Below, one piece after another: positions 55,164 to 56,316 of a DNA stretch of 64,000 bases. The notes beneath the pieces are model-generated. The model was not told the DNA's origin, ran no database searches, and worked only from the letters and a program-made list of their open reading frames with translations. The position numbers were made by a program, and so were the translations under genes. The DNA comes from Nostoc sp. LEGE 12450 (GTDB lineage: Bacteria; Cyanobacteriota; Cyanobacteriia; Cyanobacteriales; Nostocaceae), in contig NZ_JADEXU010000029.1 of NCBI RefSeq assembly GCF_015206895.1, positions 1 to 64,000 on the forward strand, in the 5' to 3' direction. Each line of letters starts with the position of its first letter. Position 1 is the first letter of the stretch.

Positions 55164-56316
55164 TTATAACCTACTCACTAAATTTTCAATTGTTTTACGA
55201 CATAACTCTCTTTGTTCTTTAGCTACTTGTATCCTTTCTTTATAAACATAGTAAATATTTTTATCCATTTTACTTAGCGGAATTCCTTGGTTAGCAGCAA
55301 CAACACCTGCACTATTAAAATCACGTAATTCAGCACTATACAATGCTTCAAAAGTTTCTTGACTATCTATACAAGAGTTACTATCAATATCAATAAACCG
55401 ATCGGGATTTTTACAATACTCATCATACATTTTTTTTATAGCTTCATTTGACAAAGCTTTAAATGCATGAGCAGCTCCCTTTTGTTGCGTAAACCTATTC
55501 CCAAGAAGCAATGCTATTTTCGGTCTTTCAATCTTAAAATTATCTACTTTTGATGAAAATGTATAATTACCATACACAGGATGTTTATTTTCCGTACCCC
55601 AGATCAGATTAAAAAGCCCAGTTATTGCAAATATAGATGAGTCATCCGCATTTATAGGGACTAGCAGATATTCACCCGATAAAATTGCGATTTGGGTATA
55701 AACAGAAAAGCTAGGATTGGTATCAATAAAATATGTACACGGTTTATCACTAACTTGTCGTTCAGTAAGATTTTTAATAATTGAATGTACACTTTCCCAC
55801 GGCTTATCACTTTGAGATAACGGTGTTGCATCAGCTCTTTCTGAGAGTAATGGCGCAATCAACTCCAGATTGCCATCACCTGATAGCAAATACATATTTT
55901 CAGGCAAATTAGGATTTACTTCATGTAGGTCTATTATGTATTTAGTTAAATCAGTAGTATCTGATTTGATTATGCTATCAGTTATATAACCAATTTTCAG
56001 GCAAATTAGGATTTACTTCATGTAGGTCTATTATGTATTTAGTTAAATCAGTAGTATCTGATTTGATTATGCTATCAGTTATATAACCAACAACTGTCTG
56101 GGGAGTTACCCTAGTTATAAGACCTTGAAGATGCTCTTCAGCTTCTTTTCCCCCGCCTATAAGCATCATTGAAACATTTGCTTGAGGACACATATCTATT
56201 ACAACAACATCTCTATCAGGATTATTTTCTGCATAAACAGAAGCAACGTGGAATGTTATGGTACTTTTACCAACTCCACCTTTGTTATTCCACATTACAT
56301 AGCTTTTATTCTTCAT
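55164..56316 (-). pseudogene. ParA/MinD-family ATPase split by a 97-bp tandem duplication
   Basis: Two leftward frames cover one gene. The first (56316 to 55978) holds the deviant Walker A (NNKGGVGKSTITFH, near residue 10) and VVVIDMCPQANVSMM; the second (to 55164) holds the C-terminal part (KIERPKIALLLGNRF, QGIPLSKM). Removing one copy of the 97-bp repeat leaves 1056 bases, exactly 352 codons, and joins VNPNLPEN directly to MYLLSGDGNLEL. Known: ParA ATPases partition DNA or other cargo. No parB is adjacent. As it stands the protein would end after 112 residues. Confidence 0.88.
55897..56090. repeat. exact 97-bp tandem duplication
   Basis: 55897-55993 and 55994-56090 are identical over 97 bases (TTTTCAGGCAAATTAGG ... 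CAGTTATATAACCAA). 97 is not a multiple of 3, so it shifts the frame of the ParA gene. Perfect identity implies a recent event, or an assembly artefact. Confidence 0.95.

Follow-up and report, generated by a model that had tools for sequence, protein, structure and literature searches.

A gene for a ParA-type ATPase in Nostoc sp. LEGE 12450 carries an exact tandem duplication of 97 bp that splits it into two reading frames. The gene lies on the minus strand at 56316-55164 of the window, the 64,000-nucleotide stretch of DNA analyzed here. In the reading we favor, to which we assign a probability of roughly 0.8, a single 97-bp replication accident, for which a template switch is the likeliest form, recently inactivated an orphan, acquired ParA gene that had once been under selection. 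The gene, of the kind that serves plasmid or phage partition, would have entered a segment beside hupSL-type hydrogenase genes, and it appears to have been whole and under selection at one time. Because 97 is not a multiple of three, translation would now halt after 112 residues, and the remainder falls in a different frame that lacks a good start, so that the gene would be inactive. One of the two copies may on occasion be lost again. The mutation is probably of an ordinary kind, a tidy example in a ParA-type gene that is probably foreign, and would offer a clean snapshot of such a gene starting to decay, with selection until the event and then one recent accident. The features on which this reading draws are collected in Table 1.

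Table 1. Features of the duplicated ParA-type gene and its surroundings, in window coordinates.
Feature	Position	Strand	Remarks
Segment with ParA gene	55149..56376	.	Unmatched in the six related hydrogenase loci compared; GC 32%; approximate limits
N-terminal ParA piece, 112 aa	55978..56316	-	Carries P-loop KGGVGKS; Pfam AAA_31 E 1e-9
C-terminal ParA piece, 247 aa from TTG	55164..55907	-	Without P-loop; AAA_31 E 1.3e-4, below curated cut-off
97-bp direct repeat, copy 1	55896..55992	-	Downstream copy with respect to the gene; part of the C-terminal frame
97-bp direct repeat, copy 2	55993..56089	-	Upstream copy with respect to the gene; part of the N-terminal frame
Imperfect inverted repeat	55880..55981	.	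9-bp perfect outer arms 55880-55888 and 55973-55981, near both breakpoints

Tandem Repeats Finder reports the repeat at 55896-56090 with a period of 97, 2.0 copies and 100% matches, and a direct scan of the window finds a self-match at lag 97 that spans 98 bases, base 56090 being one extra matching base beyond the two 97-bp copies. The first-pass annotation of this DNA had described two identical, abutting 97-bp copies at 55897..56090; both methods bear out the copies themselves and the end of that span, whereas its start is one base off. The copies are identical at 97 of 97 bases, and this identity argues that the duplication is recent, as had been proposed. In a scan of the window for periods of 15-2999, in which an exact run had to reach 30 bases and also cover a full period, the periods of the remaining exact tandem repeats lay between 21 and 28. 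Elsewhere in the window, Tandem Repeats Finder reports imperfect repeats whose periods are longer. Arrays of 7-bp repeats are also present, at 7427-7516, 8535-8723 and 49609-49674.

Two exact abutting copies in a draft genome of 415 contigs have the classic look of an assembly error in which overlapping pieces were abutted and not merged, yet several features of the assembly make this explanation quite unlikely. When 107 contig ends were compared, 12 pairs had terminal sequence in common, which is 127 bp long in seven pairs, 128 in two, 129, 105 and 16 in one each, and never 97; these shared ends point to an assembly built with 127-base words. A 98-base repeat is shorter than such words, and joining the two copies should therefore have required reads that span the junction. 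Contig 376 begins with a 96-bp tandem array (L171, 1-223), its period a multiple of three, which is cut off by the contig end after 223 bases, or 127 + 96, and probably has more copies than the assembler was able to resolve. That array breaks where an assembly of this kind would break a longer one; the ParA array, at 195 bases, lies below the 223-base limit and leaves its contig intact. In a sample of 100 stretches from the same genome (1,273,426 bases, about 15% of the total), the 28,938 N are confined to 13 stretches that consist wholly of N. Across this sample and the window, the only exact tandem repeats of period 60 to 1999 are the 97-bp array and the 96-bp array of contig 376, which suggests that such events are rare in this genome; three further exact tandem repeats in the sample have periods of 42-43. 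These arguments, which are indirect and drawn from one assembly, make a genuine duplication probable and a simple assembly error unlikely.

The gene spans 1153 nt, that is 97 + 1056, and 1056 is 3 x 352, or 351 amino acids plus a stop. The arithmetic of the first-pass annotation, by which 97 is not divisible by three and breaks the ParA frame while one copy leaves exactly 352 codons, is therefore correct. The N-terminal frame runs past the junction between the copies and stops 15 nt into copy 1. This piece reads NNKGGVGKST, in which we take KGGVGKS, near the N-terminus, to be the deviant Walker A motif of ParA-type P-loop ATPases, and its Pfam matches to AAA_31 (Table 1) and CbiA (E 3.9e-9) are both above cut-off. 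Translation of the C-terminal piece from its TTG is conceivable, although no clear ribosome-binding site is visible there by eye. The ATPase domain is thus spread over two frames, and the window gene is a broken, not a working, member of the ParA-type P-loop ATPases. Judged from its reading frames, the gene is most likely inactive in the sequenced clone, and the duplication most likely a recent pseudogenizing mutation.

The closest relative found, a protein of 349 aa from Candidatus Halobeggiatoa sp. HSG11 (locus L059, 5689-6738), is about 77% identical and unbroken, and Tandem Repeats Finder detected no such duplication at that locus. Aligned separately, the N- and C-terminal pieces cover its residues 1-108 and 105-349 of 349, respectively. 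By tblastn the two pieces fall in different frames, both otherwise open, and the C-terminal frame extends back to residue 76; residues 76-108 (Halobeggiatoa numbering) are encoded twice, once per frame, at about 77% identity. When bacterial and archaeal species were scanned, each represented by one genome and at a sensitivity limited to close relatives, two loci were confirmed: that of Halobeggiatoa, with 79% identity in its best segment, and another, 31% identical, in a Rickettsiales bin. A search of 192 genomes of the family listed 27 places: the window's own, 15 others that match the C-terminal piece at E <= 1e-9, and 11 that were omitted as weak (E 1e-4 to 1e-3). Twelve of the 15 are open frames of 342-368 aa, and the remaining three have an internal TAA (L038) or shorter frames of 282 and 137 aa (L045 and L057). 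Counted among the 15 is a second ParA-type gene of the same genome, on contig 81, which encodes 368 aa and is 34% identical. In a comparison of 21 homologue loci, which omits L057, an exact tandem repeat of 30-599 bp occurs in the window's own locus and in none of the other 20. The first-pass annotation had suggested looking for intact homologues, and had held that a two-frame structure in all of them would speak against its account; intact homologues exist, both in the family and in Halobeggiatoa, and most homologues found are single-frame. The unbroken Halobeggiatoa gene, the mostly single-frame homologues and the confinement of the repeat to one locus together argue that the two-frame state is derived.

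Comparison of the window pieces with the Halobeggiatoa gene gives a pN/pS of 0.23; the 353 codon pairs compared include four residues that enter twice, once from each piece, and dS is about 1.9, near saturation. This ratio, together with frames that are otherwise open, indicates purifying selection through much of the gene's history, before the break. Open frames and conserved sequence in both pieces might be expected if the split were functional, the pieces serving as two separate small genes or being joined into one protein by ribosomal frameshifting. Such a split is very improbable, for the P-loop is carried by one piece only, most relatives found have a single frame, and a protein made by frameshifting at the junction would, owing to the doubly encoded residues, repeat about 32 of them.

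The sole PHROG matched is the ParA-like partition protein phrog_164, with E values of 2.9e-18 for the N-terminal piece, 1.1e-10 for the C-terminal piece and 5.3e-34 for the Halobeggiatoa protein. The NCBIfam model ParA_partition scores 31.9 bits for the N-terminal piece and 41.6 for the Halobeggiatoa protein, against a cut-off of 180. Homologues are present in 157 of 72,556 plasmid records, at 31-33% identity in 20 entries among the matches listed, and in 3 of 50,697 phage records (three entries, 30-31% identical). For the C-terminal piece, no relative was confirmed among viral contigs in a scan sensitive to close relatives only. The window gene has in common with the ParA-like partition ATPases of plasmids and phages its P-loop, the length of its unbroken relatives and its family matches; unlike them, it is split by a duplication, adjoins hup-type genes and has no partner among five scanned neighbors, a Pfam scan of these five proteins having found no ParB.

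The homology at the duplication junction amounts to 1 bp, and an imperfect inverted repeat lies close by (Table 1). Taken as single-stranded DNA, the 120 bases of 55876-55995 fold better than shuffled sequences, with z of -2.95 and -2.66 for the two strands; 5/200 and 2/200 shuffles, respectively, fold as well. The two breakpoints are joined by a 9-bp stem, and among control positions 97 bp apart, stems of at least 9 bp were found at none of 731 others within the gene region and at 55 of the 8787 sampled across the window. As this association was tested post hoc, after the repeat had been seen, it is suggestive only. The short junction homology and the adjacent hairpin fit template switching: a replication fork stalled at the hairpin would switch template back by 97 bp and lay down a tandem copy in a single replication accident. 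We regard a template switch beside the hairpin as the likeliest mechanism. The window repeat resembles spontaneous short tandem duplications, as formed by slipped misalignment or template switching, in being exact, head-to-tail, out of frame, recent and near a hairpin. For confirmed duplications in Salmonella, one report gives a deduced cut-off of at least 11 bp of junction homology, in contrast to the 1 bp seen here; the screen used there favored long homology and events larger than 5 kb, and the comparison is a loose one (PMC3411829).

The first-pass annotation had also raised the possibility of a reversible switch, in which the repeat would be gained and lost often enough to toggle the ParA gene between inactive and active states. 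Perfect tandem copies of such length, exemplified by the 101-bp repeats placed in tetA, undergo frequent RecA-independent deletion in plasmid assays in E. coli (PMC8378479). In a Synechocystis substrain, a 110-kb duplication is described as disappearing after months of autotrophic growth (PMC10068330). The tetA repeats nearly equal the window repeat in length and layout, although they belong to an engineered plasmid assay; by analogy with their instability, loss of one 97-bp copy may happen in the window gene and is plausible. To regain the duplication, however, the same breakpoints would have to be used with 1 bp of homology, which should be rare, so that the cycle would be lopsided and mostly one-way. 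A gene whose phase varies through a repeat would be expected to retain that repeat in its homologues, and here it is restricted to the window's own locus. One state alone has been seen, and the whole gene is present in none of 52 other genomes of the genus in a DNA-level search. A genome of the same order (G281) carries a lone C-terminal stretch (L180, 1498-1824), whose 94 residues share 65% identity with the Halobeggiatoa protein, beside a gene that we take to be uvrA; this stand-alone stretch points to a decayed remnant of the same ParA subfamily, and so to simple decay. A reversible switch is accordingly unlikely and finds no support in these comparisons. It is doubtful, too, that the allele is metastable, a standing one-copy fraction with an active ParA-type ATPase persisting in culture. 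Were it so, a recently acquired partition-type gene beside hydrogenase genes could return to function in one step, and if reads showed both states, it would become possible to measure how stable repeats of this kind naturally are in cyanobacteria.

The neighborhood bears on the acquisition of the gene. Six related hup loci were compared, namely the five best after the window's own genome, out of 59 genomes with a match, and one (G163) from the genus search, and none matches the segment that contains the ParA gene. Five of the six match up to 55144-55148 and one only to 54846, with similarity restarting at 56377 at the earliest, which argues that the gene is a local and probably foreign acquisition. 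Among 53 genomes of the genus, the whole stretch 55155-56480 is matched at the DNA level only in the window's own, with short matches in eight others; two genomes of the genus (G156 and G059) encode distant relatives, 35-36% identical. The segment has a GC content of 0.322, lower than the 0.46 of the neighboring hupL and the 0.402 of the window as a whole. This composition and distribution are most naturally explained by horizontal acquisition, and a foreign origin is probable, the gene presumably having come in from elsewhere. The match to Halobeggiatoa is confined to the gene, with no larger shared element found, no pair of terminal inverted repeats stands at the two limits of the segment, and the window contains no tRNA that could mark an integration site. 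A clean empty site is not definable, since between 55148 and 57260 the six relatives differ among themselves. Rfam gave no match in 54800-57300 at gathering thresholds, promoter-like sites numbered 6 versus 7.2 in shuffles, and terminator-like sites 0 versus 0.9. A literature search returned no title on the 97-bp repeat or the ParA gene among the matches listed.

The open genes at 52189-54846 and 61054-61527 are presumably hupS, hupL and the maturation protease gene hupW, and hupL is a single frame of 531 aa, uninterrupted by any element. A pair of genes matching XisH and XisI (Pfam) at 60290-61035 adjoins the hupW-like gene, and in two related loci (L132 and L133) the similarity bypasses this interval entirely or for the most part. 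Gene content, with the hup-type genes and the XisH and XisI pair, suggests a Nostoc-like cyanobacterium as host. Downstream of hupL, a small frame of 69 aa at 54934-55143, noted by eye, is matched in five of the six relatives, and in two loci (L135 and L136) it lies about 1-2 kb from hupL.
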